64,000 nucleotides of DNA, from assembly GCA_004335835.1 (NCBI GenBank), contig RWJK01001916.1, positions 1 through 64,000 of the forward strand, written 5' to 3'. Made by a program: the position numbers and the translations under genes. The notes under the pieces were generated by a model. The model did no database searches. It saw nothing but the letters and a program-made list of their open reading frames with translations, and was not told the DNA's origin. How positions within the stretch are numbered: the stretch's first letter is position 1; each line of letters begins with the position of its first letter. Below, in pieces: positions 214 through 63,963 of the stretch. Origin of the DNA: Scenedesmus sp. ARA3 (lineage: Eukaryota; Chlorophyta; Chlorophyceae; Sphaeropleales; Scenedesmaceae).

Positions 214-2291
214 GTGCCCACTGTTGTTGAGAAGGCTGTCAAGAGCGAGGGCGGCGGGGACGGCCCACGGCGCAGAGCAGCAGCGTTTGGGCGCGCCTTC
301 ACGGCACACCTGCAGAAGCTGCGCCAGGTGGGCGGCTGCTCGTGCTGGTGTGCGCAGCCGCCGGTACAAGGCCTGATATCTAGGCCATGTTGCGATGAGC
401 TGCTGCACAGAGCTTGCGGCTTCAGCAGCTGTGCGCTGTGCTTACAAGCTGTCTGTGATGTTTCAATCCCTGCACGAGCAGCTCCAACCACTCCTTGCAT
501 TGAGCTACATGTCGTGCTGCGCGCTATGTCCCACAGCATTTTTGGGCAGCTGGGCGTCAGCGATCCGTTTGAAAATGCAGGTCTGATGGCACACCACGTC
601 CTCAGCTCCCAATGCTGTTGTGCTGCACTGTATGTCATGCGCAGGACCCGGGCGCATACGGCCAGCTGGGCTTATCAGATCTCTTTGAGATGCGTGAGGA
701 GTGCCTGCGCGAGTTTGGCTTCAGCGACGTGTACAGGCTGGACAAGGAGGGGGAGAACGACGTGGCGCTGCAGGTGCGGAAATACTACATATAATAAATT
801 ATCTGCTGTTGCTGTTGTGTGTGGTTTGGCTGCGGCTGCTGTTAGTGTGTAGCGCAGGTGCGGGGTTGCTGTATGTGTTGTTATATGTGGTGTTCCTGTT
901 TAGTCGCTTGTGGTGTGTGTACCGCTTGGACAAGGAGGGCGAGAACGACATGACACTGCAGATGCGGCTGTTGTGTTGTTGTGTGGGCGATGCGGCCAGT
1001 GTGGTCTACATGCATGTGCGTGCAAGTGTGCTTCCTGTATGAAGTGCGCCCCTGACAAGCATAATCATGTTTGTGCAGAGCTCCTCTGTGTGTGCGCCTG
1101 GGCACGTGCACGTGCTGCTGCTCTGGCGCCTTCCAGACTGTCTTATTTCTGTGTGGCTGCCATCACTGTCGCCGCTGCTGCTGCTGCTGCTGCCAGGTGC
1201 TGCCTGACCTGCTGACTGAGCTGGACGGCATTGCTGCTTCGCTGAAACACTACTGCTGTTGCTGCTGCTGCTGCGGCTGCTGCTGCTACTGCTGCTGCTG
1301 CGGCTGCTGCTGCTGCTGCTGCTGCTGCTGCCCCTCAGGTACTGCCGGATTTGTTGACGGAGCTGGATGGCATGGAGCAGCGCCAGCGGCTGCTGGCACT
1401 GGTGCAGGTGAGTGTGGTGGTGGCTGCGCGCAGCTGTGCACTCAAATGCACCTCATGGGTGTCAAGACGCGTCCTTGTACACAGTTCTCCTGTCTACTGT
1501 CATGCTGCACAAGGTCACCTGGCTCAGCCTGCTCAGTGTTACACAGTGTGTCAGGCATGCACCAGTTTGACTTTGCTCGTGCCCACTGCATGATTAGCAC
1601 GCAACGGCCTCACTGCCCATGCCTGCCTCTGCAACTCTTTTGCTGTTGCCCTCACCCTGCTGTTGCACTCATGCTGCGCCGCCGGGCACCCTGGCGGCCA
1701 ACATCTTTGACTGCGGCAGCCTCACTGCCTGACTTATTGCATTGTCACTTCTGTCTTTTCGTCGCGCTGCAGGGCATCCTGGCCGCCAACATATTTGACT
1801 GGGGCGCCAAGGCGTGCGTGGAGCTGTACACCAACGGCACCATCCTGGACATCTACAGGGAGGTGAGGGATGTGCCTAGCCCCGAGGGTGTACCACGTAG
1901 TTACACTCATTCATGGGGACTTTTTAACGTCGAAAATCTTTTGTGAGAGGGCTATGGCACCTACAGGGGGTTGAGGCAGGCAGGTGGCCTGGGTGGGCTG
2001 AGGGATAGCGCTGTGAAGAAGGAGGTGCGGCACCGTCCTGGACATTTGCAGGGAGAGAGGGGCGGGGCGTATGCCAGTATGCTATGTCAGCTTGACAGAA
2101 GATAGGGCCATTTACTACATGCACTTTTAGAGGCTAGGTGGCTTCTCACTAACCCGTGCTGAGCTTGTGGCACTTGCTGTTGCTGTGGCCTGCCGCACTC
2201 CCCCGCAGGCTCGCCGGCGGCTGTCGAAGCGGCCGTGGCGGGTCGACGACTTCGACGACTTCCTGGAGCGAGTGTACGGCAGCAGCAGCAG

Positions 2292-2326
<35 letters not shown>

Positions 2327-4465
2327 TTCCTGATGCGCCGGCAGTAGCGCCAGCCAGCGCCGGCAGCCCGCGGGGCGCGCAGCAGGTGCAGCAGCAGATG
2401 CAGCAGCTGCAGCTGCAGGCGGCGGCTGAGCAGCAATGCGAGCAGCAGCAGCATGCTGCAGATGATCCAGCGACTGAACTGCTGGCTAGCACCACAGAAA
2501 GTCCATTCTGCAGTGCTGAAGCAGTTGCTGCTGCGGCACCCTTACCCACACCTCAGCCTGACAGCAGCAGCAGCACTACCACCGCTCCGCAGCAGCAGCA
2601 AGAACGGCAGCAGCCGCCATTCCGGCGTGTGATGGTGTTTGTGGACAATGCCGGGGCAGACATCGTGCTGGGCATGCTGCCCTTTGTGAGGGAGATGCTG
2701 CGGCTGGGCTGTGAGGTGGTGGTGGTGGCTAATAGCCTGCCAGCCATCAACGACATCACGGCAGCGGAGCTGCGCAGGTGCGGGCCTTGCGGCTGTGCGG
2801 CACTGGGTGCGCAGGTGTGACTGTGGCTGTGACTGGGTGCGCAGGCTGGCAAGCAAGAGGTGTGTGCTGTGTGCAAGCTTGCGCAGGCTGTCCAACTGAG
2901 TGTCAAACTAACAGTGTGCTGGGCATGCTGCCCTTTGTGAGGGAGATGCTGCGGCTGGGCTGTGAGGTGGTGGTGGTGGCTAATAGCCTGCCCGCTATCA
3001 ACGACATCACGGCAGCAGAGCTGCGCAGGTGTGTGTGCTTGTACGCTGCAGACTGTGTTGTATGTTGTGTTGTGAGTGTGTTGTGTCTCAGCTGCGGCTG
3101 GGCTGTGAGGTGGTGGTGGTGGCTAATAGCCTGCCAGCCATCAACGACATCACAGCCGCAGAGCTGCGCAGGTGGGCAGGTTCGGGCCTCTGGCAGCTGC
3201 GGGGTGCGTGTGTTTGAATGCAGCGTTGTGTTTTCTTACAGAGCAGGAGCGGGGCCGAGTTCCACAGGTGGGGCGTGTGGCTTGTGGCTGCGATTTCGGG
3301 TGCCTGTGTGCGGGTGAAGCCGTAGTGTATGCAAGAGCTGGGCTGTGAGGTGGTGGTGGTGGCCAACAGCCTGCCCGTATTAACCACATGACAGCGGCAG
3401 AGCTGCGCAGGTGCGTGTGCAGGCCTTATATATCTGGTTACCGTGTTGTTGTGAGCGGGTGTGTCTGAGCTGCGGCTGGGCTGTGAGGTGGTGGTGGATT
3501 TTAACAGCCTGCCCGCCATCAATGACATTACAGCGGCAGAGCTGCGCAGGTGCGTGGCCAGGCCTGGGTTTGTTATGGTGTGGTGTTTGTGTGGCTGGAA
3601 TGATGTGTGAGGTGGTGGTGGTGGCGGATAGCCTGCCTGCTGTCAACGACATCACAGCAGCAGAGCTGCGCAGTTGCGGCGTTGTGAGGCCTGCGGGGTG
3701 TCTGGCATCTGCTTAAATGCTGTGTGCTGCGAGGTGATAGATGCTGGCAGCCCTGCTGTGCGTCCCTGAGCCTACACCTTGCTCCAGCCACCCCTGCCCT
3801 CACTGCAACTGCTTGCTTCTTCCTTCGCAGCTGCTGCCGCTGCTGCCGCAGCCTGCTGTCAGCCCCTTAGGCCCTGCTCTTGCTCCAGCCACCACTTCCC
3901 TCACTGCAGCTAATTGCTTCTCCTCGCTTGCTGCTGCTGCTGCAGCAGCAGCCTGCTGTCAGCTGCCGCCGAGGTGTGCCCCATCATCAAGGCGGCACGC
4001 GCACTAATGCCCTTACTGCGAACCCCTGCTTCCCGTCCTGCTGCTGCTACTGCTGCTGCTGCTGCTGCAGCCTGCTGTCAGCTGCCGCGGAGGTGTGCCC
4101 CATCATCAAGGCAGCGCGCGCAGCAGCACTCGCGCACGAGCAGGCCCCCGGCACATCATCATCGCGTGGCGGCGCTGCTGCTGCTGCCGGCTGCCTGGCA
4201 GGGGGGCCCAGCATACCACCCTACCCAGGCCTGCGGCAGCGGCAGTCCAGTGCACAGGACTTGATGGCCCTTGCTGCTGCTGGCAATGCAGCGGCAGCTG
4301 GCAAAGGACCTGCTGGTAGTGCTGCTGCTGGTGCTGGAGGATCTGCAGCAGCAGCAGCAGCAGGCAGCGGGGGTTTGGCAGGGCAGGGTGCATTTGGGAG
4401 TCCGTTGGCTAGCTATGACGGCTCAGCGCTATTGCGCGAATGCGGCAGCAAGAGCGCGCCGCTGC

Positions 4466-4497
<32 letters not shown>

Positions 4498-4578
4498 CAA
4501 AGTGAGCTGCAGCAGACGCTGAGCAACAGCAGCAGCAGCGCCGGCAGCAGCTTGGATGGCAGCCCCAGGGAAGTCTCC

Positions 4579-4610
<32 letters not shown>

Positions 4611-6511
4611 TGAGGTGTTTGAGCCTCGGCTGTTTGTGCTGGGCAACGGCAGCGGCAGCCCCTGCCTGGACCTGAGCAGGGTGCCTGCTGCGCTGGCTGA
4701 TGCGACGGTTGGCGTGGACCTGCTGGTGAGTGTTTTTCTTTGTTACCAGGGGGGACGGAATCCTACTGGCTCGCTACCTGGTGAGTGTGATGTGTGCTGG
4801 CTTGCTGTGCTGGCTGCTTGCAGGGTTCTGTTGCTGTCTGTTGCTAATGTGCTGCGCTGGCTGATGCGACAGTGGGCGTGGACCTGCTGGTGAGTGGTGG
4901 CTGTAGTCAGTATTGAATACAGTTGTTGTGTCACCAGTACCAAGTTTTTTTATGCACCGCCATTGTCATGATGGGACGTGCTGGTGACCTGAGCAGGATG
5001 CATGCTGCGCTGGCGGATGCGACAGCGGGCGTGGACCTGCTGGTGAGTGTGTTGTGTTGCTTTCTGCAGGCTGCTTGTCTGCCTTGCTGTGCTCGTTGAT
5101 CCGACAGCGGGGTTCGTGGGTTGTGGTTTTGGTGGGTAACCATGGCGTTGCTATTGCTGGCAACTAGTCTGCTGCGCTGGCTGACGCGACAGTGGGCGTG
5201 GACCTGCTGGTGAGCGGCGGCTTTTGTTGATTTTATAATGCGCAGTCATGGTCTGTATTGAAATGCAGAGTTGGTGTCAATCTGCTGGCGTTGATTTGGC
5301 AGGCTTAGAGAGAGGGACCTGCTGTTGAGTGACTTGGGTGCTGTCTTGATGGCCGTCTACCGTGTCTGTCAAACGCACACACTCCAGGGTGGGTGGTTAC
5401 TTGAATGCCCCCTCTGCGCATCCTCATCAGCTGTGGCGCGCGTGGGCTATGCCCTGTCAACCTGCTGCTGCACCGCAGGTGATTGAGGCATGTATCGAGG
5501 GCATGGGCCGCGCCACCCACACCAAGCTGCACGGCTTCAATCAGCATTGCTGTACATGACTGGTCTGCCACCTGCAGATGTGCTGTGCTGTGCTGCTCCA
5601 CCCTGCAGGTGATTGAGGGCATGGGCCGTGCCATCCACACCAACCTGCAGGGTTTCAATCACCACTGCTGTACATGGCTGTGCTGCCACCTGCTGATGTG
5701 CTGTGCTGTGGTGCCCCACCCTGCAGGTGATCGAGGGCATGGGCCGCGCCCACACCAACCTGTGCAATTCCATTCAGCACTGCTGTACATGACCGTCCTG
5801 CCACCTGCTGATGTGCTGTGCTGGGCTTTGCTGTGCTGTGATGTGATGTGCTGTGCTGTGCTGCATCACCCTGCAGGACGAGGCCATCTCTTGAGGGCAT
5901 GGGCCGTGCCATCCACACCAACCTGCACGGCTTCAACCAGCACTGCTGTACACGACTGTTCTGCCACCTGCTGATGTGCTGTGCTGGGCTGTGCTGTGAT
6001 GTGATGTGCTGTGCTGTGCTGCGCCACCCTGCAGGTGATTGGGGGCATGGGCCGCGCCATCCACACCAACTCGCACGGTTCAAATCAGCAATGCTGTACA
6101 CGACTGTTCTGCCACCTGCTGATGTGCTGTGCTGCACTGGTAGGAGGCGTGGAGGCGCATGAGGTATCCTCATCGCCACACACGTCCCCTTCCGCTTGCG
6201 CGGGTGTTGAGTGTGAACACACCACACGTAGCTCAATCATTCTGTTCTGAATCACCCTGCAGGTGATCGAGGGCATGGGCCGCGCCATCCACACCAACCT
6301 GCGCACGCCCTTCAAGTGCGACACACTGAAGCTGGCCATGATCAAGACAGAGCGGCTGGCAGCAAAGCTGTTTGGGGGCTGCCTCTACGACTGCATGTGC
6401 AGCTTCCAGCGCCCGCCCGCGGCGGCAGCAGCAGTGGCAGCACGGGGTGCGGCAGGTGCTGCCGGTGGTGGATGTGGTCAGGCTGCGGTGGCGTTCAGCG
6501 CGCAGCAGTAG
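214..6511 (+). CDS. PANK2: Plant-type pantothenate kinase 2, C-terminal DUF89 phosphatase half (5' partial)
   Basis: Exons: 214-327, 645-773, 1339-1407, 1773-1862, 2209-2777, 4071-4725, 6263-6511 (TAG stop). All junctions are GT-AG and keep phase. The first two exons match the linker of plant PANK2 between kinase and DUF89 (AFGRAFTAHL, then YGQLGLSDLFEMREECLREF). The rest is the DUF89 domain: ILAANIFDWG, RPWRVDDFD, the metal-site FVDNAGAD, LGMLPF, VVANSLPAINDIT, GNGSGSPCLDLS, EGMGRAIHTN and KLAMIKTERLAAKLFGG. In plant PANK2 and animal PANK4 this domain is a metal-dependent phosphatase acting on 4'-phosphopantetheine or damaged forms of it, tempering coenzyme A synthesis. The Asp-Asn pair and the later Asn-Asp expected to bind metal are present. 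Poly-Q, poly-A and poly-S inserts lie between the conserved blocks, mostly in exons 2209-2777 and 4071-4725. Every intron carries degenerate copies of a flanking exon end. The kinase domain is outside the window, so the fusion is inferred from the linker. Confidence 0.88.
537..590 (+). repeat. Decayed copy of the head of PANK2 exon 645-773
   Basis: Reads FGQLGVSDPFENAG, matching YGQLGLSDLFEMRE of the exon starting at 645. The preceding intron sequence (a tgtgctgc-like stretch) is copied too. It lies inside the intron about 110 bp before the real exon and has no usable acceptor. Confidence 0.75.
921..965 (+). repeat. Decayed copy of the tail of PANK2 exon 645-773
   Basis: Encodes YRLDKEGENDMTLQM, nearly the same as YRLDKEGENDVALQ at the end of the exon at 645-773. 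The GT donor after the copy has become AT (cagatg instead of caggtg), so it is probably not spliced. Confidence 0.85.
1197..1232 (+). repeat. Copy of the head of PANK2 exon 1339-1407
   Basis: Follows a (CTG)n tract and CAG acceptor like the real exon and reads VLPDLLTELDG before diverging into CTG-rich DNA. The true exon begins 142 bp downstream at 1339. Confidence 0.85.
1685..1721 (+). repeat. Copy of the head of PANK2 exon 1773-1862
   Basis: Reads GTLAANIFDCGS, matching GILAANIFDWGA of the true exon at 1773. It lies in the preceding intron and lacks an AG acceptor immediately before it. Confidence 0.8.
2028..2056 (+). repeat. Copy of the tail of PANK2 exon 1773-1862
   Basis: Reads GTVLDICRE, matching GTILDIYRE at 1834-1862. 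The donor GT is replaced by GA (gagaga instead of gaggtgag). Confidence 0.7.
2912..3673 (+). repeat. Five tandem copies of the tail of PANK2 exon 2209-2777
   Basis: The real exon ends at 2777 with CEVVVVANSLPAINDITAAEL. Copies end at 3028, 3171, 3410, 3549 and 3673. The first starts further upstream, at LGMLPFVREML (2918). Copies one to four keep a GTG donor; the last has TTG. Copy three has a one-base frame change in the ASN-LP region and copy four has lost the VVAN residues. Spacings between ends are 251, 143, 239, 139 and 124 bp. All lie inside the intron 2778-4070. Confidence 0.93.
3830..4007 (+). repeat. Copies of the acceptor and head of PANK2 exon 4071-4725
   Basis: Two earlier acceptors (exon-like starts at 3850 and 3952) follow CTG-rich tracts and begin CCTGCTGTCAG, like the real exon at 4071. 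The copy at 3952 continues through the block AAEVCPIIKAAR; the one at 3850 diverges after a few codons. Confidence 0.88.
4851..5320 (+). repeat. Tandem copies of the tail of PANK2 exon 4071-4725
   Basis: The exon end (PAALADATVGVDLL, then gtgagt) is repeated at 4851-4890, 4984-5041 and 5170-5211, each with an intact gtgag donor. A decayed remnant (ggacctgctgttgagtg) lies near 5317. All are in the intron 4726-6262. Confidence 0.9.
5479..6110 (+). repeat. Five tandem copies of the acceptor and head of PANK2 last exon
   Basis: Exon-like starts at 5479, 5609, 5727, 5877 and 6035 precede the real one at 6263. Each follows an accepting (c)ctgcag or ccgcag and encodes variants of VIEGMGRAIHTNL. The sequence after the copies (gcacggcttcaatcagcac-like, then a ctgccacctgctgatgtg stretch) is shared among them but not with the true exon. 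So the array expanded from one diverged copy. Spacings are 130, 118, 150, 158 and 228 bp. Confidence 0.93.
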
Positions 6512-10282: not shown

Positions 10283-11989
10283 GAGGGTGTGCAGCAGCAG
10301 GATGGTGCTGCTGCTGGTGGTGCTGCTGCTGGTGGTGCTGGTCATGGTGGGGAGGTGCAGCTGGCTGGAGGAGGCCACAGGGCGGGCAACAGCGTTGAGG
10401 GATGCATGCGCTCAGGTAGGTGGTGTGGTGGTGTGCAATGCACTGCATTGTATGCAAGAATGGAAGGGTAGGCGTCCTGCTTGATGTATTTGCGGCCACA
10501 GGGCTGGCAACAGTGTGGAGGGCTGCATGCGCTCAGGTGAGGTGCTGCTTGGGGTTCATGTGCAGGGGGGGTGCATGTAGGGGCAGTGCATGCAGGGGGG
10601 GTGCATGTAGGGGCAGTGCATGCAGGGGGGGTGCCGTGGGGTGCATGCAGGGCTGGCAACAGTGTGGAGGGCTGCATGCGCTCAAGTAGGTGCTGTGGTG
10701 GTGTTCAGTGGGCTGCAGTTCATGCAACAGTAGGAGGGTGATAGACCTGCTTGCTGATTCGATGTGGCGCACCCCACCCCCCACGCTGCTGCCAACTCCT
10801 TTGTGTACAGTGCACGTGCCGTTGGAGCTTCAGCGTGAGGAGACAGGCGCCACAGATGGCAGCAGTGACATGGATGGCAGCAGCCAGGCACTGTGGCTGG
10901 CAGCAGCAAACCACAGTGGCAACCTCACTGCTGCTGCTGCTGCTGCAGCTGGAGACAAGGGCAAGCAGCAGCTGTTCATCAACGCCAGCTACGCAGACAG
11001 TGCACCCGGCAAGCCGCGTAGCAGCAGCAGCAGCAGCCGCAGCAGCAGCAGCCGCTATGGCAGCAGCCCGATCAGCAGCGGCGGCCACGGCCAGGGTGGT
11101 GCATTTGACGCTGCAAATAACAACGGCAAGCGTGGAAGTAACAACAAGCAGGGCAGTGGGCTGCAGAGGGTGGCAGAAAAGAAGGAGGGCTGTATGAGTG
11201 GCAGCAGGGGTTTCCCTCACCTGCTGCTGATTCTGCTGATGGTGTTGACAACAGTGGGTGTGGGTGTGGGCGTGTGGGCTGGGGTAACTGATATACTCGG
11301 CAAGCAGCAGCGGGCAGCAGAGGCGGCTGCGGCTGCTGCTGCTGTGGCGCTGGATACGCAGGGGGGAGCTGGGAGTGGGGTGCTGCGCTTCAGGACGGCG
11401 ATGGATGTGCCGAGCAGCCTGCCGGGCAATGCGAGCTGCGGGCAGTGGTTCGGCAGCGCTGAGGTGGGTGCGCTGAGAAAGTACTAAGGGTGTGGCTGAT
11501 GCAGCTGTGTGCAAACCACATGTCCACGTTTCTGTTCAATGCGAGCTGCGGGCAGTGGTTTGGAAGCGCTGAGGTGGGTGCGCTGAGAGAGTGCTAAGGG
11601 TGTGGCTGATGCAGCTGTGTGCAAACCACATGTCCACGTTTCTGTTCAATGCGAGCTGCGGGCAGTGGTTTGGAAGCGCTGAGGTGGGTGGGGTGAGGGT
11701 AGAATCTGCAAGCCACATGTGTCAAGCTTCTGATCAGTGCATTGGCAGCAAGGGGTCAGGTGTGTTGCTATACAAGCTTGTTGATAAGCACATTCAATCC
11801 TAGTGTGGCAGCGCTCCCATGTGCCGTGTTGTGGTTGCACAGCAGCTAATCCAGTCAAACACTGTCAAGGGTGGCTGTTGTGCGTTGCTGTGCACCAGCA
11901 TGCGCATCAACAATATCAAGACCACAGCCATGCGCAGCCCCAGTGCTGTAGCAATTATTGAAATGCATGCTGACTCAATGTTCTGCCTG

Positions 11990-16870: not shown

Positions 16871-16906
<36 letters not shown>

Positions 16907-23500: not shown

Positions 23501-26152
23501 GGTGGATGCCTGCCTGCTGCTGCAGCAGCAGCAGCATGCTTGCCATGTGCATCGCCAGACAAGAAGAAGCATGAAGACGGCTACCAGCAGCAGCAGGCGC
23601 AGAAGCAAAAGTGCAGCAAGCCCAAGATGTGCGCAGTGCTGCTGCTGCTGCTGGTGCTGGCGGGAGTTGGTGCAGGGGTTGGCGTGTGGGCCAGCAGGCA
23701 AACGGCACAGAAGCAGATGCAGCAGCAGGGCTTCACCACAGGCCGGCTGGCAGATGCTGTGGCAGCGACACGGGATGTCAATGCGGATGCGCCTGACGGC
23801 AGCAGCAGCAGCAGCAGCAGCGGAGATCGGCTCAACTTCAGGGTGGTGGTCACGCTGCCGGCCAGCTCTGCGCAGAAGGGCTGCAGCACATGGTTCGACA
23901 GCAAGGAGGTGAGGCGGGAAAAAGGCAGCAGTGGCTGCACAAACTGTGTTGGGGCAGGTGCCTCGGTGCACCTCGTGCAATCTGCCAGGTCTCGCACTGC
24001 TGCTCAGTGGTTGTAGGAAGGGGTAACAGTTACTTTCCGTGAGCATTGATATAGCTTTCTGTGCTGCTGGTATTGTGCTCATCTCGGCGCTGCCTGCTTG
24101 CTGTCCTGGCAACCGCAGCGCATCACGCTGTTACAAACTTATCTTTTCTGCTGCTGCTGCTGCTGATTCTATGTCTGCTGTTGTGCTCTGCCGCCTGCAG
24201 CGCATCACGCTGTTCCGGCAGCTGGTGTCCGGCGCGTACGCGACAGCGCTCAAAATACCCAAAGGCGAGGTGCAGATCGGCAGCGTCAAGTGCGGCAGCA
24301 GCACCATCTTCAGCAAGAGCAGCAACAACAAGCCGCCGCGACGGCCGGCACCTGCTCGGCTGCTACTGTCTGGCAGCCACCACACAGAATTTGCAGATGC
24401 AGGTGCAGATGCCATCAGCATTCAGCTGCTTCCAGAACAAGCTGCAGCAGCTGGTGCATTCGAATCCATTGGCCTGGAAGGCAGCAGCTCGCGTAAGCGC
24501 TCGCTGCTGCAGGCGCTGGCGTCGCCCGTGAACTTCTACACGGAGCCCGTGCCTATCTCAACCGGCTTCTCAGTGCCGGCACCTGCTGAGGCAGCAGCAA
24601 GAGCTCGAGTGGTGCAGACAGTAGCCAGCCAGTCTCCGGCTATCCTCAGCGGGGCCCTGAGCAGCTTCTTTGGCACGCCGCTATCCATGGTTAATGCAGA
24701 GGAGCCAGCCAAAAAGACCACCAGCAAAGCGCTCGGAGAGAAGCCACCCGCGAAACCTGCCAAGCCTGCCACTGCTGCTGCAGCGAACAAGACGCAGACC
24801 GCTCAGAAAGCGCCAGCATTGCCAAAAGGTGCAGCGCTGGCGCCGCAGCCACATAAACCGGAGCCAGCGCTACAAGACGCAGACGAGCAGCAGCAGCCCA
24901 AGCCGACGCCAACGCAGCAGGCGCAGCTGTACTTCAAGCAGCAGCAGCGGCAGAAGCAGTGGCGCAAGCGCGACCCAGCGCAGCCCCTGGCTGCGCAGTA
25001 CCACCTGCCAGCAGAGCAGCAGCTGCAGCCAGCCCCGTTTAGCGACCGCCCACGTTCGGCCCAGCTCACAAACGTCAGCCCGCTTGATACGCGCTCCGCA
25101 TTCAACAGCGTCGCGCTGCTGGCGCCGGCAGCGCACACGCAGGATGAGGCGCAGCAGCCGCTGCAGCAGCAGATCGCCAAGGCGTTGACCGGCCAAGGTT
25201 TGACCAGCGACGACGTTAATAACAGCTCCGCCTTTGACCAGGCGCCAGCCTGTCCCTTCCCACCCACCAAGGCCAACAGCGCACCGGACAAAGCGGGCCG
25301 ACTGTGGAGCCTCAACAACAGCAACAACAAGCTTTGCGCATTCCGGCCCTACCCAGACATCACCCCTAGCGCCCCTGTCATATCCTGGGCCACTGCGTCT
25401 GACTGCGCAGGGGCTGCGAATGTTACTAATAGTGTTACTGACGATGACGGCCGGCTGTGGGGCTGGCAGCAGGATGCCAGCTGCGCCTTCCGGAGCTCAG
25501 CGCCCCTCAATGGCCCTGTACCGCCTAACATACAGGCCAAATCAGGCAGGACAGACAGTCAGGCTTTCCAGGAGCTCATGTCCAATCTGTCGGGGGGCTA
25601 TGTGAGCGTGGTGTGGGAGGCGGCGCCGGCATGCCCGTTTGCGCCGACCAGCGTCAACTCGGTGCCTGACAGGTTTGGGCGGCTGTGGAGTTGGCACAGC
25701 GGCAAGAGCTGCGCCTTCAAGGTGGGGGTGGAGGGCTTAGGGTTAGGTTTAGGGTTTAGGGTTAGGTTTAGGGCCTAATCGTCAACTCGGTGCCTGACAG
25801 GTTTGGGCGGCTGTGGAGCTGGCACAGCGGCAAGAGCTGCGCCTTCAAGGTGGGGGGCAGGGTGGTGTGGGCGGGTGCGAATGACGGTGGTGTGCCTGTA
25901 GCCTGCTGTGTGCGATGCAACATGCAGGAGTGTAGCGCTAGAAGTAGGACAGGATTGCCCTGTGTGAGCTGTGTAAGATCTGCTGCTAGGGATACCTGTG
26001 GTGTGTCAAAGCTTTTGTCAGCTATGTTTACCACGCAAGTCCTCTGCAGGGCTGCACTCATGTTGGACCGTATGTCCATCATCAACTTCTCTATACTGAC
26101 CTGCTTCTTTTCCGTGCCTGCTGCATCCTGTCTGCTGCAGCCCAAGAGCTGA
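16839..26152 (+). CDS. Giant low-complexity membrane protein with C-terminal Cys/Trp repeats (paralogue B)
   Basis: Exons: 16839-22845, 23133-23908, 24201-25721 and probably a last coding piece from 26141 (PKS then TGA), about 2,770 residues; phases agree. The first 6-kb exon is one open frame of poly-A, poly-Q and poly-S stretches with five copies of a basic RRSLTN-K-LLPSPRQS motif (from residue 850). Two copies of a CxPCLT block (CGPCLTASDD, CAPCLTHSID) lie near its end, and a related LPCASPD in exon 2. One membrane segment (AVLLLLLVLAGVGAGVGVWA, about 23634-23693) has no preceding signal peptide, so N-in C-out is likely. The outer part matches paralogue A: CSTWFDSKE, RITLFRQLVSGAYATAL, SSFFGTPLSMVNAEE, then three Cys/Trp repeats (25241-25721). 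Unlike paralogue A its frame is intact. Function unknown; a surface or wall-contact role is inferred only from topology. The extreme C terminus is uncertain. Confidence 0.75.
19386..20280 (+). repeat. Five protein-level repeats of a basic SPRQS motif in paralogue B
   Basis: Near residues 850 to 1140 the consensus (R/K)SL(T/S)N(M/I)xK(W/L)L(L/M)PSPRQS appears four times. A fifth degenerate copy is RRSLTGLKWWGK. Copies are separated by poly-Q or poly-A linkers. The repeated S-L and S-P-R sites next to arginines look like kinase or docking sites (inference). Confidence 0.9.
24119..24135 (+). repeat. Copy of the acceptor and head of exon 24201-25721
   Basis: ccgcag followed by cgcatcacgctgtt repeats the true exon start at 24201 (RITLF), 82 bp upstream; the copy diverges after five codons. 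Confidence 0.8.
25737..25773 (+). repeat. Interstitial telomere-like repeat inside an exon-junction duplication
   Basis: A 37-bp run of TTTAGGG with TTAGGG/TTAGG variants. It lies between the true exon end (donor at 25722) and a second copy of that exon end (25781-25849, donor at 25850). Confidence 0.95.
25781..25860 (+). repeat. Copy of the tail of exon 24201-25721
   Basis: Repeats VNSVPDRFGRLWSWHSGKSC and the rest of the exon end with a gtgggg donor, 128 bp after the first. It is almost identical to 25653-25721, which implies a recent duplication or gene conversion. Confidence 0.95.
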
Positions 26153-26309: not shown

Positions 26310-26559
26310 GCACAGGGCATGGTAGGCAGGTAGGGTGCAGTGTTTACTGCAGTGCTGTGTTCAGCTGGCGCAGCTTCCTGGTATTTCAGCGCTGTGGCGC
26401 TACAGGCACCTCAGCAGCAGCAGCAGCAGCAACAGACCTTGCTGATGCTGCGCTGTCCCCGCGAGCTGCTGGCGGCATGAAAAGGCTGGGTACGCAGATG
26501 GGGTACAGGCGCTGATTGCAGTGCGGCGCATGACAGCACGTGCTGGCAGCTGATATTTT

Positions 26560-27150
26560 GCTGATGGTTGACTGCGTCGTGTGTTGCTGGTGGATAGCTG
26601 CCTTGACTGGCGGCACACGTGGCCAAGATGGGCTGCAGGCTGGATGTAATTGCTGTGGACTCAATGCTGCGTGTGCGCCTGGAGCAAGCGCAAGCATGCT
26701 GGAGGGTGTTATGTACAGCGCTCATGGATCAGTTGTGGTAGCAGCTGTTCGCCTGACACTTGCTGATGGTTGACTGCGTCGTGTGTTGCTGGCAAATAGC
26801 TGCCTTGACTGGCAGCACACGTGGCCAAGATGGGCTGCAGGAAAGGTTGGTTGGCTGGCTGTGATTGTTGGGGCTTGAATGCTGCGGGTGTGCACAGAGC
26901 ACACACAAGCTGCCATGACTGGCGGCACGCGTGGCCAAGATAGGCTGCAGGTTGGCTGTGATTGTTGTGAATTGAGCGCTGCGGGTGTGCCTCGAGCATG
27001 CGCAAGCTGCCTTGACTAGAGGCATGTGTGGCCACGATGGGCTGCAGGCTGGCTGTGATATTGTTGTGGATCCAATGCTGCGGGTGTGCCTCCAGCATGG
27101 CCCATGCATTCTGGCGCGCATTGGGTGCAGCGCTCATGGCTCATTGTTGA
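26560..27150. repeat. Degenerate tandem repeat, units of about 95-210 bp
   Basis: Four blocks share agctgccttgactggcggc, then a gtggccaagatgggctgcagg stretch. They start near 26597, 26801, 26909 and 27005, each followed by tgtgattgttgtgg- and atgctgcgggtgtgc-like text. The flank ttgctgatggttgactgcgt occurs twice (26558 and 26759). Confidence 0.88.
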
Positions 27151-27370
27151 TAGCGGCTGTGAACAGCTGCAGGGAGGGCATGGCTGGAGCAGAATGGCTG
27201 TGGCTGTGTACTGTTGATCACCCTTGCGTTGTGGGCTGTTGATGGCCCACATGTATTACTAACTGCACACTAGTGTGCAGTGCGGTGCTAGGGGCAAGTC
27301 CTGGTGCACGACGCACTGTGGCTGGCAGTGCAGTGATGTCTGGTTGTCCATGGCTAGTGTGCGGGGGTGA

Positions 27371-31996: not shown

Positions 31997-32138
31997 AAGG
32001 TTGTTTGGGGACTGCGAGCAAGGGTGTGCTCTTGGTGCTGCCAGCACGACCGGCATATTATTTATTTGAGGTTGCATGAGGTCAAGAGAGCAGCTGTGCA
32101 TGTTGTGGTGTCACATCACATCCTCTTGTGCAGCACTG

Positions 32139-32248
32139 CAAGCCAGTCTGGTGCAGCTGTGTGCCAGGCAGAACTCAGCAAGCACCTGCCAAATACTGGG
32201 GCTGAGGTGGACCCCTTTGCAGAGGTGGGGTTTATGCAAGATGTGTGA
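32139..32248 (+). pseudogene. Copy of the DJ-1 coding tail and stop codon
   Basis: LPNTGAEVDPFAEVGFMQDV plus TGA repeats LPNTEADVDPFAEVGFVPDV plus TAA of the terminal exon, 252 bp downstream. Part of the following 3' flank (gctggtgttgccagcac) is also repeated. Confidence 0.9.
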
Positions 32249-43989: not shown

Positions 43990-44400
43990 GTGTGCTGAGT
44001 TGAATCCAGTATATTATGGGTGTATACCGAGATGAATCCAGCATGATATGAGTGTATACCGAGATGTTTCCAGCGTGATATGGGTGTTTTGCTGAGATGA
44101 ATCCAGCATGATATGAGTGTATACCGAGATGTTTCCAGCGTGATATGGGTGTTTTGCTGAGATGAATCCAGCATGATATGGGTGTTTGCTGAGATGAATC
44201 CAGCGTATGTTGGATCTGCTGAGGATTTAAACTGCATTTTGATGTGGATGGGTGTTGAGGGTTCTTGTGTACTCTGTGTGGGCAGGTGTTACTGTGCTGA
44301 CATGAGTCCAGCATGAATCGGGTGCTCTGAGGCACTCCAGCACAATTCGGGTGGGGGCTGAGATGAATCCAGCAGAAATTGGATGTGTGCTGAGAAATGA
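43990..44400. repeat. Minisatellite of about 33 bp after the MFS gene
   Basis: Unit close to gagatgaatccagcatgata, then tgggtgtataccgagatg-like text. Seven or so good copies at 43997-44225 alternate gtgtatacc and gtgttttgct variants, so a two-unit higher-order repeat of about 66 bp is visible. Degenerate copies continue to about 44400. It begins eight bases after the stop, so it is probably transcribed in the 3' UTR. Confidence 0.93.
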
Positions 44401-45543
44401 AGAATTTGACTTGCAGTTCTGATGTGGATTTGTGTTTAGGGTTCTTGTGTAGGCAGGCATCGGCAGGCAATGGTGCTGTTTGTGTAGCAGCGACAGGTGT
44501 AGGGTAGCATATGGCAAGGTGATGCTGTTGTGCTGTGTCCCGCAGGGTGGGGTTGCAACCCCGGGCAATTGCCCAGAGCATGTGTGCCGAGTTCCTGGAT
44601 TGTCAAGCACTGCGGGGTGCGCTGCATGCAGTGCACTCACGTGACTCACTCACTCCTGGTGTTCATACTGTCGTGCGCGCTCCATAGCGAGAAGAGCGAA
44701 GATTGGCATTGTGCGCTTTCCCGTCTGTGTGTGTAGCATGTGGCTGAGAGCGGCTAACAGATGCCAGCTTTCCCCTGAAATTTTAGCTCTGGGCGCTGGC
44801 GCGGCTGCAAGGCTGCAGCCTGCTGCTGGCCACCGCTGAGTGAGGTTTCTTGCCAAGCATCTGTGCAGCCTGCTGCATGGCACGGCTGACTGCTGGTTTG
44901 CTGACAACCGAGGCGGTGGCGGTTGCTGCGCTGCCAGCCCTTTTTGTGGATGCCTTTGCTTACATGCGTTGTGTAGGAGCTCACGATGATCAGCATACAG
45001 CTGCTGCATAGCTTACAGCTGGGTGGCTTCATGTTGTGGCACAAGTTCACACTCAGTTTACACTCGCTCACACTCAGTGAATTGACGCCATAATCAACGG
45101 TTGTACAATGCCAATGGCAGGCTGTTGCCAGCTGTGCTGCAAAGCTGGAGCTTGTCGCGCACACATGTGCGCTCAGCGCAGTTGCAGTGCAGCAAGTTTG
45201 CTTGATGTGCGGCTGCAACTGCTGGCCCACACTGGCAGGGCGTGGTGACAATTGGTTGCAAGTATCTATCAGGCATTCTGGCACCTGCGTGCAGTTCAGC
45301 TGATGGTGTTGTTGCACGCTGTCGTTTCCATCGGCAACCACATGCCATGTGGTCCATGATGGACGCAGCACGATCACTGCATAAGGTGTACAGCAACCAG
45401 GACCCAGCACCTGATGCAACAACCCTGGATGCAGGTGACATGTCACAACGGTTCAGTGGTTCGTGCGGTTCATGCCAAAGGGATGGATGATATGGATTGC
45501 ATCACATGGACATTGAACAGTTAGGCCACAATGAACAGCAAGG
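44401..45543. other. Intergenic with dispersed repeat copy B
   Basis: Dispersed repeat B occupies most of it. No protein-coding feature is supported. Confidence 0.5.
44800..45322 (+). repeat. Dispersed repeat, copy B
   Basis: Second copy of the element at 38422-38896, same orientation and about 6 kb away. It shares the same ordered blocks and has local insertions, such as a cactcagtttacactcgctc duplication near 45050. Confidence 0.8.
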
Positions 45544-45966: not shown

Positions 45967-48408
45967 TTGCAGGAGTTTCTTGCAGAGGCAACAAAGCTTT
46001 TGGCAGCCGAGCCTGGCCTGCTGCGCTGCAGCAGCGATGAGTCGCTGCTTGCAGCGTGGCACGCAGCGGCACACACCAGCAGCAAGGCACAAACCAGCAA
46101 CAGTGCAACTTCAGCAACAGCAGGCGTAGCCACAGCAGCTGCCGCACACGCAGCAGCTGTTGCGCAGCAGCCGCTGCCGTCGCGGCGTTACCTGCTGGCA
46201 GCCACTTTCCACAACAGCGCAGCAGTGCTGCCTAACTTTGCAGTGCAAGCCCTGCGCCTGGCGCTGCTGCTGCCGCAAGGCCACCTCACAATAAGCCTGT
46301 ACGAGAGCGGCAGCAGCGACACGAGCCGGCTGTGGCTCACGCTGCTGCACCAGCTGCTGCTGCCGCTGCGCGTGCCACACAACATCACTGTAGCTGGCCG
46401 GCTGTCGCCTCGCTTGGGCCTGCCGCGCATCCAGCTGCTGGCTGCGCTGCGCAACGCACTGCTGGAGCCCTGGCTGCAGCAGCAGCAGCAGCAGCAGCAG
46501 CAGGGCTTGCAGAAAAGTGGTCAGCAGGCACAGCAGCATGCAGGCACAAGTAATCCGGCAGCTGCAAGCTGGCGCATGTGGGGCACAACAGCACAGAAAC
46601 ATTCAACAGCAGCAGCAGCAGGGGCTGGCAGCAGCCTGAGTCATGGCATGGACGGTACCTTTGTGCCACACACGCTGCTGTTTGCGAATGACGTGCTGCT
46701 GTGTGCGGAGGATGTGCTGCGGCTGGTGCTGCATGACGCGCACATTGCTTGCGGCATGGACTTCTACACTGCACCCTGGCAGCAGCAGCAGCAGCAGGGG
46801 GAGCAAGGCGCCGGAGGCAGCACCAGCGCAGGGACAGTTCCTGCAGGCAGCAACAGCAGCAGCAACAGTGATGCTGGCAGTGATGACGATGACGTTGACG
46901 ATGACTTCTTTGACCCTGAGCGAATGCAGCTGCTGAGCAGCACTGCCAGCAGCGCTGGCAACAAGGCAACTGCCGGCCAGCAGCAGCAGCAGCATGGCAA
47001 TGGTAGCCTCAGGTTTTATGACAAGGTGAGATCAAGGGTTACGTGGCGCTGTAAGCAGAGTGGGCATAGTGGCTATATGATGCAGCTGGGGCAGCTGTGT
47101 GCAAAAAGCCATTGCGTGCCGCTGATTGGCCTGCATGCTTGCCGGCACAAGCGTTCTGCATCCCAACACCAGCATGCAGTGTTGTGGGCGCAGCTATACA
47201 CTGCAGGTTACGTTGCGGCTGCCGCCATGCCCACCTCATGCCCTCACCACCCCTGCTGCCCTGCTGCCATGCCCTCTGCCCTGGCCTGCCTTGGCTGTGC
47301 TATGCAGTGGGTGGGGCATTAACAACCAGCCCTTTCACCATGCCCCAAGCGCAACAGCCGGCTGTTACGCCTTACTAACGCCCACACAACCTGCTGTCCT
47401 GCTGCCCTGTTATCTGCTGTTTGTTCGTGCCCTGCAGTGGGTGGCGCGGGATGCCGCCGGCAGCCGCTTGATTAACCGGCCACAATTCTGCACCATGCCT
47501 TCCTTCGCCTACACAACCTGCTGCCCTGCTGCCCTGCTCTCTGCTGTCTTTGGCTGCCCTGCAGTGGGTGGCGCGGGATGCCGCTGGCAGCAGCCTGGTC
47601 AACCGGCCACGACTCTGCACCATGCCTTCCTACGCCCACACAGCCTGCTGTCCTGCTGCTGTGTTGTTTGCTGTTTGTGCCTGCCCTGCAGTGGGTGGCG
47701 AGGGACGCCGCCGGCAGCCGCCTGGTCAACCGGCCACCCTTCATCCGCCACGCCGCCAGTGCAGCAGCACTGGCAGCAGGCCTGCCTGTGGCAATGGCCT
47801 GCTGCTGGAACGGCCTGGCAGTGCTGTCTGCTGCACCCTTTGTGCAGGGACTGCCGTTTAGGGCGCAGCAGCCTGGGGAGTGCAGGGCTTCAGAATGCAG
47901 CCTGCTATGTGACGATTTTGCGCGGCTGGGTTTAGCGCACGTGGTGATGGACCCAGGGGTGCGGCTGGCGTATGAAATAGAGCAGCTGGACAGCTTAGGA
48001 GCAGCAGGCACAGCAGCAGCAGCAGCAAATGGTGGTGGTGGTGGTGAGGCAGGAGCTGCCGCGGCAACAGCTGATGATGATGGTGGTGTTGTTGCTGGCC
48101 TGGGGCCGCGCCTGCCCTGGCAGCAAGTGGCACAAGTGTCAGCGCAGCTGGCGGCAGCAGCACGCGCACGCGCAGCGGCAGCGGCAGATGCATGCAGGCA
48201 ACAGCAGGGGCAGCAGCAGCAGGACAGCAGTGCTGCTGCTTGGTGCGGCACGTGCGGCGGGGGCTGTGGGGAAGCGGTGCGCATGGTAGAGTGCTGCGAT
48301 TTGCAGCCTGGCCACGCCTATGTAAACTTCAGGAGGGACTGCCGCATGGCTGACAGGCTGTCTCCCAACTACACAGCAACAGTGCTGCCAGCAGCTGTGG
48401 CAACGTGA
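45544..48408 (+). CDS. CAP59/CMT1-type alpha-1,3-mannosyltransferase (GT69 family)
   Basis: Two exons, 45544-47025 and 47692-48408, phase 0, about 732 residues. A short basic N terminus and one hydrophobic segment (residues 14-32) make a type II signal anchor, as expected for a Golgi glycosyltransferase. Family blocks in order: LLAATFHNSAAVLPNF, ISLYESGSSDTSR, RIQLLAALRNALLEPW, LLFANDVLLCAEDVLRLV, ACGMDFYTAPW, FYDKWVARDAAGS across the splice, AMACCWNGLAVLSAAPF, ASECSLLCDDF and DPGVRLAYE. Fungal members add mannose in capsule or wall glycans; the algal acceptor is unknown. Poly-S (45923-45966), poly-Q and an acidic DDDDVDDDFF insert separate the blocks, so it is longer than fungal relatives. 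The C-terminal CGTCGGGCGE cysteine cluster and the MADRLSPNY tail are not part of the fungal family as I know it. The intron ends in a 127-bp array of the acceptor, and the coding tail is copied downstream. Confidence 0.85.
47308..47727 (+). repeat. 127-bp tandem array of intron end plus exon head in the GT69 gene
   Basis: Exon-like starts follow cctgcag acceptors at 47438, 47565 and the true 47692, exactly 127 bp apart. A decayed one lies at 47308 (130 bp earlier). Each encodes WVARDAAGSxLxNRP. The shared remainder of each unit is intron (acaacctgctgccctgctgc). Because 127 is not a multiple of three, use of an upstream acceptor would break the frame. Confidence 0.96.
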
Positions 48409-51846: not shown

Positions 51847-51943
<97 letters not shown>

Positions 51944-56778: not shown

Positions 56779-57030
56779 GAGATGGGGTGGTGGCTGTAGC
56801 AGCCTGCAAGGCATGCCTATGCATACGGGCATAGCTTGAGAGTGCACAGGGCATGGCGTGAGAGATGGGGTGGTGGCTGTAGCAGCCTGCAAGGCATGCC
56901 TATGCATACGGGCATAGCTTGAGAGTGCACAGTGCATGGCGTGAGAGATGCCGCCAAGGGCATGGCATGATGCGTGGGCAGGTGGCTGCAGCAGCCAGCC
57001 AGCCCAGCATATGCATGAGGCTATGGCTTT
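56768..57030 (+). repeat. 83-bp tandem copies of the coding end and 3' flank
   Basis: gcatggcgtgagagatgggg (which contains the real TGA at 56776-56778) recurs at 56851 and 56934, exactly 83 bp apart, with the intervening sequence almost unchanged. A fourth, diverged copy starts at about 56952 with a tail of ccgccaagggcatggc, like the coding end. Confidence 0.95.
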
Positions 57031-57727
57031 AGGGCGCACAGGCGTGCTCTGTCGGCGACTTGGCTGTGTTGTTACTACCATGACTATCACAGCAAGTCTG
57101 CAGGAGCTGCGTGTTGCAGGCCTTGATGTGATGTGATGTGGTGATGCATTTCGGGAGGGAGGTGTTTGTGGCAAGGCCGCTCCAACATTGAGCATGAGTT
57201 GTGGGTGGCACCTGGCTTGTTGCAGCTGGCGCAGCTTGTGATGTGGTGGAAGTGGCACAGCAGATTAACTGGTCATTCAGCTGCAGCAGCCAGGTGTTGG
57301 GTGCCGGACTAATGATGTTACTATGTTTCCTTTTGGCGTCTTTTCAAGGGTGTTTCAATTGAACAAAGTATGCAAACAATCACAGCGGCTAGTGTGTGAC
57401 CAGGCGTGTGCAACAAAATGCACATTGGGTGAAATGCTGGTGTAGCCAGTGGGCCACATCTGTCTGTCTAGACATGCCTAAACATGTGAGCAAATCACCA
57501 TGAGCGTGACCAGTGCAGGGGGCCTTGTATGCACTAGCGTCAACACTGTGGACAGTAGATATGAGATCTACTGCTACATCTGTTGCACGCTACAAATGCA
57601 TGCAAGCCGCTTCATGCGGAGCACATTTGGAGAGGTGAAGCAGCCCCGCACCAACTCGCCCCTACCCCGCACCGCCTATACTCCCAGAGAGGGTCACATT
57701 TTGACCGGTCCTTTGAAAGGAAAGACA
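57031..57727. other. Intergenic, no supported gene
   Basis: No domain or repeat was recognised. 57600-57727 is probably 3' flank of the adjoining LINE remnant on the minus strand. Confidence 0.4.
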
Positions 57728-61400: not shown

Positions 61401-62139
61401 ACCATGCCCAGACAGGATTGGAACCACGCCCCTGCCCTCATGCACAAAACGATTGGAGCAGCGCACAGCAGTGCTGCCTGCCGTTTGCTGCCACCAGCGA
61501 CGCACCATGCAAATCCACCGCCCCATGCAATCATTGGGGACCCCAACACAGCTCATCGACTACCTCAATATGCTCTGAAGCCACCAGGAGGCGTGGCACT
61601 CCATCACAAACGCACAAAACAGCAGCCAGCGTGTTCTGTGTCAACCAACAAAGCACACAAACCACAGAGTCAACAAGCACTCTGAGCAGGCGCGGCATGT
61701 GCTGTGCGGCCACACCCAAAGCAAAATGGCTGCTGCGGGAGCCAGCCGCAACCGCCCCCAGCTGCTGAAGGTGGAGACATATCACGCTTCAGCACGCAGC
61801 AACGGCAGCAGTAGCTGCCACACAGCACTGTACCGCTCCAGCTGACAAGACAAGCCAACACACACAGCAGCATCCAGCTGCTTCAAACCTGCATCAACAT
61901 AAGCTACAAGCGCGCACCCCTCGCCTAGCGCGCTAGCAGCAGCAGCCCCATGCATGCATGCTGTTCTCCCCTTCTTTGCCAGTTCATGCATCTGCTTGGG
62001 GCCAGCTGCTTTCAAATTTACTGCTGCAACAGAAGCCGCAGCGGTCCTCCCGCTCTCCCACGGGTGCTTCTGCACAGCCAGCTGCAGCGGAGAGGCCGCT
62101 CAGCTGCTAGCGCATGCAGCGCCAGCGCCAGCGCGCCGC
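58466..62139. other. Intergenic, no supported gene
   Basis: AT-richer than the genes. It holds a 50-bp tandem duplication (60444-60493 and 60494-60543, agtcaaaacagacgtcaagc...) and a 14-bp repeat cccgaagctcctca (61071-61106, about 2.6 copies). Open frames are scattered on both strands without domains. Confidence 0.5.
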
Positions 62140-63963
62140 TCAGGCGCGCTTACGCACCAGCGCCTGCATGCTCTGGCCCTCATCATCACTCTCATCCTCA
62201 CCACCGCAGTGCCCACAGCCGCTGCTTCTGTCAGTGGCGCTGCTGCTGCCGCAGTGTGCAGCTGCTGCTGCTGCCGGCTGGCTGCGCAGCACGTAGAGCT
62301 TGGTCACCAGCGGCAGCTCGAAGGGCCGCGCCTCGCCAAAGTGCTGCTGCACCAGGCGCGCCACCTCCTGCGGGGTTGCACGCGGCACACATAAGGCGCA
62401 CAAACGTGAGGGAGTGTAGCGCTTCATGCTTGACGAGCACGCAGCTTAACACAAGTGCATTGTATGCAAAACTCGCTGTACGTTGCACTGATATGTTGTG
62501 CTACAACCTGAACAGCGGGTTGCCAAGTCTACAGCACTCGAGCCCTGAGCGCCTCACCCTGTGGAAGTGCTTGTGTGTGGCGCTGCAGGGAGAGACATGC
62601 AACAAGCTGTACGACGCACTGCCACATAATGCTGCCACCATGTACATCTCCTGAAAAGACGCATGTCAAACAGTTCAGTCGCGCGCCTCACCTTGTGGAA
62701 GTGCTTGCGCGTGGCACTGCTTGCCGCCAGGTGGGCCCGCACGCAGGCCAGGCCGCCCAGCAGGTCCTGCAGGGCGCCGCAGCGGGGCATGGCCAGGCCA
62801 TGGGGGTGGTTGGAAAAGCTGACCAGGCGCAGCGCGCCGCCTGCAGGAAAAGGGAGGAGGGCAGCGGCGGGTGGAGTGCAGGAAAGCAGCAGCGGGCAGA
62901 GAGCTCCATGTCAGGTGCTGTACTTGGATGGCACCACGGCAGAAACAAGGCACAGCACAGTGCTTGCGAAGGCGGCAGCCACAGTAAAGCACAAAAGAAG
63001 GCCTGCCTGCCACACCCCGCGTGTTGCGTGCGCAAACAGGACACTACACGTGCTGCAGCACTGCAAGCAGCGAACGTAGCAGTGAGCAGCAGCCATGCGA
63101 TGATGCAGCCATGCACGGCGCGCACCATCTGTGAGCGCGTTGGTCCACGCCGGCGGGTCGTGCTGCCTGCTGGCCCTGCAGTAGTCGGGGTTGACCGCCT
63201 CCAGCAGCGCCTCCAGCCCACACACAAAGGGCGACAACAGGTCCCTGCAGCAGCGCGCATGAGAGGGCAGGGGCGGGCTGAGTCAATGTGAAAGCTGGGA
63301 AGAGTGGATGTGTGTTTTTAAGCTAGAAGGCAGCTGTTGCATGCACTCAACGCACGCTTTGCCAGTGCAGCGAACTTTGAAAATATACTCTACAATAAAT
63401 TGCTGTACATGATCCATGCTGTGTCTGCTGCCAGCACACAGCCACCTGCCCCCTCACCTGTCATTCCAGGCCACAGCCAGGTAGCCTCCCTTCGCCATCA
63501 GCCGCCGTGCCTCAGCCAGCAGCTCCGCAGCAGCCATGCTGGGCGGGCCGGGCAGGACAGTCACAAGGTCGGAACAGCCAGGGGGTAGGCGGCACTGATG
63601 TGCCCAGGGGGGGCCCTGCCCAGGTGGCGCCACCTCAGCCACACGGAAGCCCCTGCAGCAGTTTTTGGAGGGGTCAAGTGCAGGATGAGTGATGATACTA
63701 CAGCAGCGGATGGGTGCGATGGTCATGGTATGTGAAGTAGTGGATGGTTTGTCCTCCTTATGCTGCTGCTGGTGGCGGTGAGCGGAGCAGTGTACGCTGC
63801 CAGTGCTGCTGTCCAGCTCAGACGTGCCTGTGCCACTTGCAGGACTCATGATACAGCAAATAGTATTTACGGCGCGAGAGTTCCAACGAGTGCATCTACC
63901 CTTCGTTGCAGCCTGCACAGCTGCTGGGTGCTCACCACTGGGCCAGCTCTGCACCAGCAGCAC
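62140..63963 (-). CDS. SAM-dependent methyltransferase, type-11-like (5' partial)
   Basis: Minus-strand exons from 5' to 3': tentative 63936-63963, 63458-63652, 63126-63244, 62692-62840, 62140-62367 (stop). Phases agree at the first two internal junctions and splice sites are GT-AG. The second exon reads GFRVAEVAPPG, CSDLVTVLPG, AEARRLMAKGGYLAVAWNDR, the acidic-loop and post-motif strands of class I methyltransferases. Downstream are PFVCGLEALLEAVNPDY, VSFSNHPHG, RKHFHK and VARLVQQHFGEARPFELPLVTKLYVL, typical of the C-terminal part of this family. The glycine-rich SAM-binding motif I would be in exons beyond 64000, so it cannot be checked. Substrate unknown. The last 35 residues are a Ser/Gly/Cys/Asp-rich tail (GCGHCGGEDESDDEG). 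The tail of exon 62692-62840 is copied in the following intron. Confidence 0.65.
62551..62600 (-). repeat. Copy of the tail of methyltransferase exon 62692-62840
   Basis: On the minus strand the exon end RKHFHK plus gtgaggcgc donor recurs 134 bp downstream (donors at 62691 and 62557), with four mismatches in about 30 bases. Confidence 0.9.

Follow-up and report, generated by a model that had tools for sequence, protein, structure and literature searches.

The stretch of DNA analysed here (the window) comprises positions 1 to 64,000 of the forward strand of contig RWJK01001916.1 from the green alga Scenedesmus sp. ARA3 (assembly GCA_004335835.1). It is a portion of an 88-kb contig, and the genome searched amounts to 87.27 Mb in 1567 contigs with N gaps. 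Over 83% of its length, a reading frame of 583 amino acids (24027-25775) is 98% identical to a Tetradesmus obliquus protein, which makes the alga that species or close kin of it (Chlorophyceae, Scenedesmaceae). The introns of the window contain arrays in which the edge of the adjoining exon recurs together with its splice site. In an ARMT1-like gene, such arrays are present on the donor side and on the acceptor side of both introns, from 2777 to 6263. The arrays were found by a tandem-repeat search and by self-comparison of the window, and reading in frame identified them as exon edges with splice sites. In the following, T designates the exon edge of a copy and S the intronic spacer after or before T.

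In donor-side arrays, the first element is the real exon end with its GT, and the copies lie downstream within the intron; in acceptor-side arrays, copies of the AG and of the exon start come first and the real acceptor is the last. An earlier reading of the sequence alone (the sequence-only reading) had proposed this order, which held, and alignment with a homologue confirms it for the ARMT1-like gene. The protein obtained by joining the first donor to the last acceptor aligns over both junctions to At2g17340 (PDB 1xfi, E-value 4.4e-35), in two stretches split by a low-complexity insert within the middle exon. The Scenedesmus protein P0005 displays the same read-through of the first junction, and its gene model has extra residues at the second. 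The copies read in this gene contain frameshifts and stops.

Frequency and placement of the edge copies

The recurrent copying of exon edges and splice sites inside introns is also observed beyond the window. Chaperonin-family genes from 11 contigs, represented by 59 listed exon matches to PF00118, were picked blind to repeats. Three redundant exon hits and six low-scoring junctions were removed before counting, which left 85 junctions (43 donors and 42 acceptors). Junctions were placed from the Pfam exon hits and with a hand-made site score preferring GTRNG; the donor at 7803 of locus L033 was positioned manually from the boundary of its copy. The placed donors follow the consensus GTGNG, with G at +3 in a fraction of 0.96 and G at +5 in 51 of 51, a value that is partly built in because the placement score favours GTRNG. 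A copy was counted when a 30-bp exon probe matched at 80% or more within 700 bp of the adjoining intron, and the nearest copy was searched from 25 bp. In the window, 14 junctions with copies were placed to the base (8 donors and 6 acceptors), chosen for having copies. These junctions are absent from the chaperonin counts (42/85 and 27/42) and are included in the totals of 56 junctions, of 27 donors and 24 acceptors, and of 59 and 45 pairs given below; the codon tests omit five of them, for which no frame was set. Copies within one array are not independent of each other.

An own-side intronic copy was detected at 42 of the 85 chaperonin junctions (donors, 22 of 43; acceptors, 20 of 42). Past the opposite end of the same exon, the probe matched at none of the 85 junctions, and it gave no reverse-complement or reversed edge copy either (0/85 each). 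Probes taken from the middle of the longer exons gave downstream matches in 8 of 52 cases and upstream matches in none of 52. This one-sidedness (42 against 0 of 85) is expected of a tandem duplication that spares coding sequence and not of the insertion of free exon copies, so that exon edges copied and pasted freely into neighbouring introns are a disfavoured explanation. No clear condition for the arrays emerged from the exon ends: an exon start with GT was present at 8 of 20 acceptors with copies and at 10 of 22 without, and an exon end with AG at 18 of 22 donors with copies and at 13 of 21 without.

The sequence-only reading had announced copies in almost every gene. This holds for nine of the 11 chaperonin-family genes, which have at least one copy-bearing junction, but not for the gene of contig C837 (copies at 0 of 9 junctions) nor for that of C1552 (0 of 4, though repeats occur elsewhere in the gene span). 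The three introns measured in the C837 gene (L034, C837:13501-23000) are short (232, 259 and 254 bp), unlike those of most of its chaperonin relatives. Concerning the distance to the nearest copy, the 56 junctions that include those of the window range from 80 to 300 bp; 39 of them fall between 100 and 160 bp, one between 80 and 100 bp, and none of the 56 below 80 bp.

In the 24 introns for which both ends are known, we observe 9 donor-side and 11 acceptor-side arrays against a single intron-internal cluster of duplications. Because exon-edge arrays remain detectable longer, the contrast was run again on spacers alone: copies were found in 7 of 48 junction spacers and in 6 of 94 mid-intron segments, a weak contrast in which four of the six mid-intron positives belong, by their coordinates, to junction arrays. 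Seven regions of the same contigs, chosen blind to genes (about 62 kb readable), contain 28 repeat pairs, several at splice-like motifs and some not. A genome-wide comparison of junctions with mid-intron and intergenic density had been called for by the sequence-only reading; the sequence covered here amounts to 246 kb with few annotated introns. From these counts, enrichment of duplication at junctions appears likely, although it is not settled.

Extent of the likeness and arrays of the window

For the most similar copy of each junction, the likeness reaches 28-113 bp into the exon. On the intron side, it covers 2-9 bp in 23 of 27 donors (11, 17, 20 and 100 bp in the remainder) and 3-7 bp in 12 of 24 acceptors (12-100 bp in the remainder). 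In most copies, the likeness is limited to the exon. Donor copies with an unrelated spacer and an edge identity of at least 0.9 (n=22) match at positions +1 to +6 in proportions of 1.00, 1.00, 0.91, 0.64, 0.95 and 0.27, where the site consensus alone would give 1.00, 1.00, 0.92, 0.32, 1.00 and 0.32. Since the per-base matches sit near this expectation, the intron-side likeness is largely, but not wholly, splice consensus.

Spacers were classified by an anchored alignment over 60 bp of spacer. The spacer of the nearest copy is homologous to the real one at 19 of 56 junctions (class 1) and not detectably homologous at 37 (class 2); the chaperonin genes taken separately give 15 and 27 of 42. The term "tandem copies" used in the sequence-only reading is thus appropriate for the exon edge and splice site, which do recur, but not for the spacer at these 37 junctions. 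The two classes have median spacings of 129 and 138 bp, the same median exon identity (0.90) and mean exon identities of 0.93 and 0.89. Between real junction and copy, class 1 differs by 0.083-0.086 in the exon edges and by 0.15-0.20 in the spacers. With these values, class 1 comes near to what neutral tandem duplication would give. Class 2 does not: when plain duplication of donor edges was simulated with uniform ages, an indel rate set by us and no indels in T, 6.6% of spacers were unalignable at an exon-edge identity of at least 0.875. Among the real-copy pairs with an edge identity of at least 0.87, 51 of 83 have unalignable spacers (several copies per junction, hence non-independent).

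Compared with shifted controls, class-2 spacers retain no excess likeness in donors (-0.03, s.e. 0.44, n=40) and some in acceptors (4.44, s.e. 0.75, n=29); the latter could come from the branch site and pyrimidine tract or from old common descent. With harsh scoring, the 95% mark of the null is exceeded by 2 of 32 pairs of donor type and by 9 of 45 of acceptor type (classes assigned by motif, strand-blind). With a tuned test applied to the placed junctions, 19/59 and 17/45 real-copy pairs exceed 99%. At locus L035, the edges are 100% identical over 73 bp and the spacers are unrelated; in a whole-genome search, the spacer preceding this copy and the flank following it match only themselves. The spacer as a dispersed element was rejected on this single-copy spacer and flank; a scan of 17 spacers against the other sampled sequence was swamped by CTG repeats.

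The ARMT1-like gene illustrates the same contrast. In its first donor array, the edges are 0.55-0.95 alike and ungapped, and 13 of 15 spacer pairs are unrelated (z -0.8 to 1.5), the related ones being copies 1-3 and 3-4 (z about 4). Its second donor array combines four near-identical edges with four unrelated spacers (six spacer pairs, z -1.7 to 0.4). A higher-order repeat at 4669-5222 was considered and rejected, the spacers being unrelated.

Copied splice sites decay in step with the exon. In the 0.87-0.95 identity bin, 57 of 61 splice sites and 57 of 61 exon dinucleotides are intact; since the copied sites fail at about the same rate as the adjacent exon dinucleotides, the copies are probably non-functional.

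Table 1. Edge arrays and comparison arrays of the window, with positions counted from its first nucleotide.
Feature	Positions	Strand	Details
Donor edge and one decayed copy (GT to AT)	729..967	+	real end 773
Donor-side array, ARMT1-like gene	2665..3679	+	real exon end 2777; five copies ending 3028, 3171, 3410, 3549, 3673
Acceptor-side array	3778..4122	+	copies precede real acceptor; exon start 4071
Donor-side array	4685..5214	+	real exon end 4725; three copies starting at about 4850, 5003, 5169
Acceptor-side array	5485..6305	+	four copies by probe, five by reading, then real acceptor; exon start 6263 (VIEGMGRAIHTN...)
Donor edge and two copies	10373..10756	+	real end 10415
Donor edge, whole-unit 110-bp tandem copies	11427..11697	+	real end 11463; first spacer pair homologous
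Donor edge and 77-bp copy at 98.7%	25652..25856	+	real end 25721; 51-bp spacer
Tandem array, units of about 97-110 bp (comparison case)	26558..27160	+	no splice junction recognised
Acceptor copy, then real acceptor	31055..31220	+	exon start 31169; 59 bp at 97%, likeness stops 7 bp into intron
Acceptor copy, then real acceptor	31605..31785	+	exon start 31732
Donor edge and one copy 252 bp downstream	31934..32244	+	real end 31972
Donor-side array	35067..35311	+	real end 35100; copies at +108, +205
Acceptor-side array	35549..35873	+	real exon start 35811; copies at -119, -252
Tandem array, 32/65/97-bp units (comparison case)	43993..44451	+	no junction recognised
Acceptor-side array, 127-bp whole units	47369..47737	+	last unit (47692) taken as real

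The spacer of the array at 25652 (25729-25779) is composed of degenerate TTTAGGG telomere-like repeats and lies between the exon edges of 98.7% identity. Runs of four perfect TTTAGGG units are found only on contigs C538 and C953. Telomere repeats as a general filler were rejected: 246,136 bases contain 36 TTTAGGG, and the 140 orders of its letters average 29. At the array of 31055, the peptide reads as DJ-1/PfpI-like; a Pfam search of the frame 31117-31818 gave no match.

Other repeats were observed in the window. An 83-bp unit is present in 2.2 copies at 99% beside weaker copies (56755-57042), where no junction was recognised, and a 16-bp unit, GCGACAGATCTTGCTT, in about four near-perfect copies at 26247-26309. 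CAG/CTG trinucleotide runs are many (e.g. 51847-51942, 19237-19376 and 1253-1331), and some form the tract before an acceptor AG. A stop-free candidate frame of 2020 codons (16800-22862, + strand) is rich in CAG runs; at 19301-19930 it includes a repeat whose length is about 141-148 bp.

Origin of the copies

We favour, tentatively, an explanation in which duplications span the junction and their exon part is kept alike by an edge-restricted exchange seeded from the conserved real exon. A short tandem duplication (about 80-180 bp) would span an exon-intron junction and would be tolerated, as use of the first donor, or of the last acceptor, would leave the mRNA unchanged while the intron would lengthen by one unit. 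The T of the copy would stay similar through exchange with the real exon (by conversion, unequal exchange or single-strand annealing), and the real exon, kept intact by selection, would be a permanent seed. The spacer, lacking an anchor, would diverge and, once diverged, would drop out of exchange. The outcome would be modular intron edges in which T and the splice site recur and spacers turn over. On this view, every copy would have arisen by tandem duplication, and exchange would be what preserves the likeness of T.

Several observations are in favour of this explanation, among them the one-sidedness of the copies and the decay of copied splice sites in step with the exon. The whole-unit duplicates (19 of 56) share the spacing of the rest. 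The likeness gives out where the real junction ceases to be constrained (for 23 of 27 donors, at +2 to +9). In the spacer-ascertained set (17 junctions), 20 of 524 sites at codon positions 1 and 2 of T are different, where about 38 differences would be expected from half of the spacer divergence of 0.143 (our own arithmetic). In long copy-copy alignments, the divergence is 0.126 for T and 0.275 for spacers, with T the lower in 36 of 38. In the real-copy class with unalignable spacers the differences at codon positions 1, 2 and 3 number 33, 30 and 143; an excess at position 3 beyond that of neutral copies points to exchange with a constrained exon, or to a functional past.

Several results weigh against edge-restricted exchange, which is itself not directly seen. 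The long copy-copy comparison partly aligns unrelated spacers between matching edges. Where the spacers of two copies can be aligned, the divergences of T and S lie closer together (0.10 and 0.16 in donors, 0.125 and 0.13 in acceptors). Between real edges and nearest copies (51 junctions), the differences at codon positions 1, 2 and 3 are 43, 41 and 115, a heavier share at position 3 than is expected of neutral copies. Arrays with a single copy may combine a T at 95-99% with unrelated short spacers (25652, 31055, L032 5926 and L043 5891), and exchange therefore needs a very efficient conversion over 40-77 bp. Finally, relatives' frames extend past the first ARMT1-like donor without a copy for 228 bp (P0008 and P0009, nearly the same sequence) and past the second for 240, 147 and 135 bp (P0011, P0006 and P0061). 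In this genome, the copies start about 139 bp and about 125 bp into the intron at the same two donors. The absence of copies in these relatives implies a fast turnover of arrays and no great age for those at these donors, whereas the saturation of the spacers suggests age.

A duplication aimed at the junction itself is possible but doubtful. A break or switch at the splice site (about +5 in donors, -3 to -7 in acceptors), perhaps tied to transcription or splicing, would copy the edge with a spacer that is unrelated from birth. It would account for near-identical edges with unrelated spacers, as at L035, where both flanks of the copy are single-copy in the genome, for an intron-side boundary that is tight in donors (2-9 bp in 23 of 27) where the exon-side one is broad (28-113 bp), for the telomere-like filler at 25729-25779 and for the few intron-internal duplications. 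However, whole-unit copies are similarly spaced, so one process may make both kinds; the tight boundary is partly splice consensus and in acceptors is found in just 12 of 24 (3-7 bp); the whole-unit 83-bp duplicate at 56765 lies where no junction was recognised; and the origin of the spacer is left unexplained. Slightly less probable is the full proposition that a splice-junction process copies the edge up to about the splice site (+5 in donors, -3 in acceptors) some 100-180 bp into the adjoining intron, repeatedly and in most genes, coupled to transcription or splicing, and so lengthens the introns of the lineage.

Random tandem duplication of about 100 bp with neutral decay, surviving where coding is spared, had been offered by the sequence-only reading as the null. 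It explains the order of the copies, their one-sidedness (42 against 0 of 85) and the arrays in which no junction was recognised, namely the repeats which that reading had placed outside junctions (26558-27160 and 43993-44451). About a third of the copies behave roughly as it predicts. It does not readily explain why the likeness ends at about the splice site, nor easily the scarcity of duplications in the middle of introns (1 against 20), and the simulated 6.6% of unalignable spacers stands against the 51 of 83 observed. Standing alone, with neither exchange nor targeting, it is improbable.

Recombination between diverged haplotypes or introgressed lineages, joining an exon edge and intron start across haplotypes so that edges match and introns differ, would yield canonical sites on both sides, unrelated spacers and the position-3 bias (33, 30, 143). 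We consider it quite improbable: by inspection of the listing, none of the chaperonin matches on 11 contigs resembles a second haplotype, and this route does not easily yield identical edges beside unrelated introns. Copies serving as functional alternative splice sites or exons are very improbable. Donor copies with an unrelated spacer and T of at least 0.9 keep GT in 22 of 22 cases and G at +5 in 21 of 22, and the third-position bias also fits a function, but the sites decay along with the exon copy, the ARMT1-like copies have frameshifts and stops, and use of the copied sites would put spacer into the mRNA. An assembly artefact, conceivable with 1567 contigs and N gaps, is the least credible explanation, as the copies are diverged to many degrees, one-sided and tied to splice sites, and the sole gap of the window (15520-15683) lies outside the arrays.

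Intron growth and comparison with known systems

Edge copying is a visible route of intron growth. Among the 24 introns whose two ends are established, length is 232-452 bp in the 10 that lack copies and 381-1579 bp in the 14 that carry them. In a published table (PMC5966456), introns average 462 bp in T. obliquus and, for four further green algae, 230-302 bp; edge copying could help to explain the intron length of T. obliquus. The intact decoy splice sites beside real ones offer a natural test of how the spliceosome chooses the first donor and the last acceptor, and edge copies complicate gene prediction. If duplication were targeted to junctions, splicing would be linked to mutation.

Intron gain by tandem genomic duplication follows the AGGT model (PMC3443670; also PMC4974935), and the former paper mentions non-homologous end joining (NHEJ) and repeats flanking gained introns. 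As in that system, a piece with a splice site is duplicated and splicing hides it. That model creates a new intron within an exon, whereas the edge copies lengthen an intron that already exists, at both of its ends. A new intron in a continuous exon was not what we found: further intronic sequence follows the copies, the protein aligns across the junctions, and no copy lies on the far side in 85 junctions. Introner elements (PMC9860276) resemble the edge arrays in that intronic sequence multiplies across many genes. Unlike introners, the copies are local and derive from the adjoining exon, and no dispersed family was seen for the one copy whose flanks were tested. Near-identical introns at unrelated loci were not found for the spacer and flank of this L035 copy, searched genome-wide.

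Minisatellites under concerted evolution have tandem units of about 100 bp in several copies, with parts of the unit kept alike. The edge arrays differ from them in that the alike part ends at about the splice site and is anchored to a coding exon. The whole-unit homology of a plain minisatellite is found in 19 of 56 nearest copies and fails in 37. The 20 differences against about 38 would suit concerted evolution, as would the lower divergence of T in 36 of 38 long alignments, but in acceptor copy-copy pairs T and S are near-equal. Tandem or mutually exclusive exons would be complete and keep the frame; here, the likeness reaches only 28-113 bp into the exon, and stops and frameshifts occur in the ARMT1-like copies.

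Repair of staggered breaks produces filler-containing tandem duplications with a T-spacer-T anatomy. The edge arrays share this layout, with a telomere-like filler in one case, but the boundaries of such duplications are not expected at splice sites. In the open-licence literature, no description of edge arrays was found in the titles and abstract openings of the matches listed. Taken together, the edge arrays resemble both tandem-duplication intron gain and minisatellite evolution, and fit neither definition in full.

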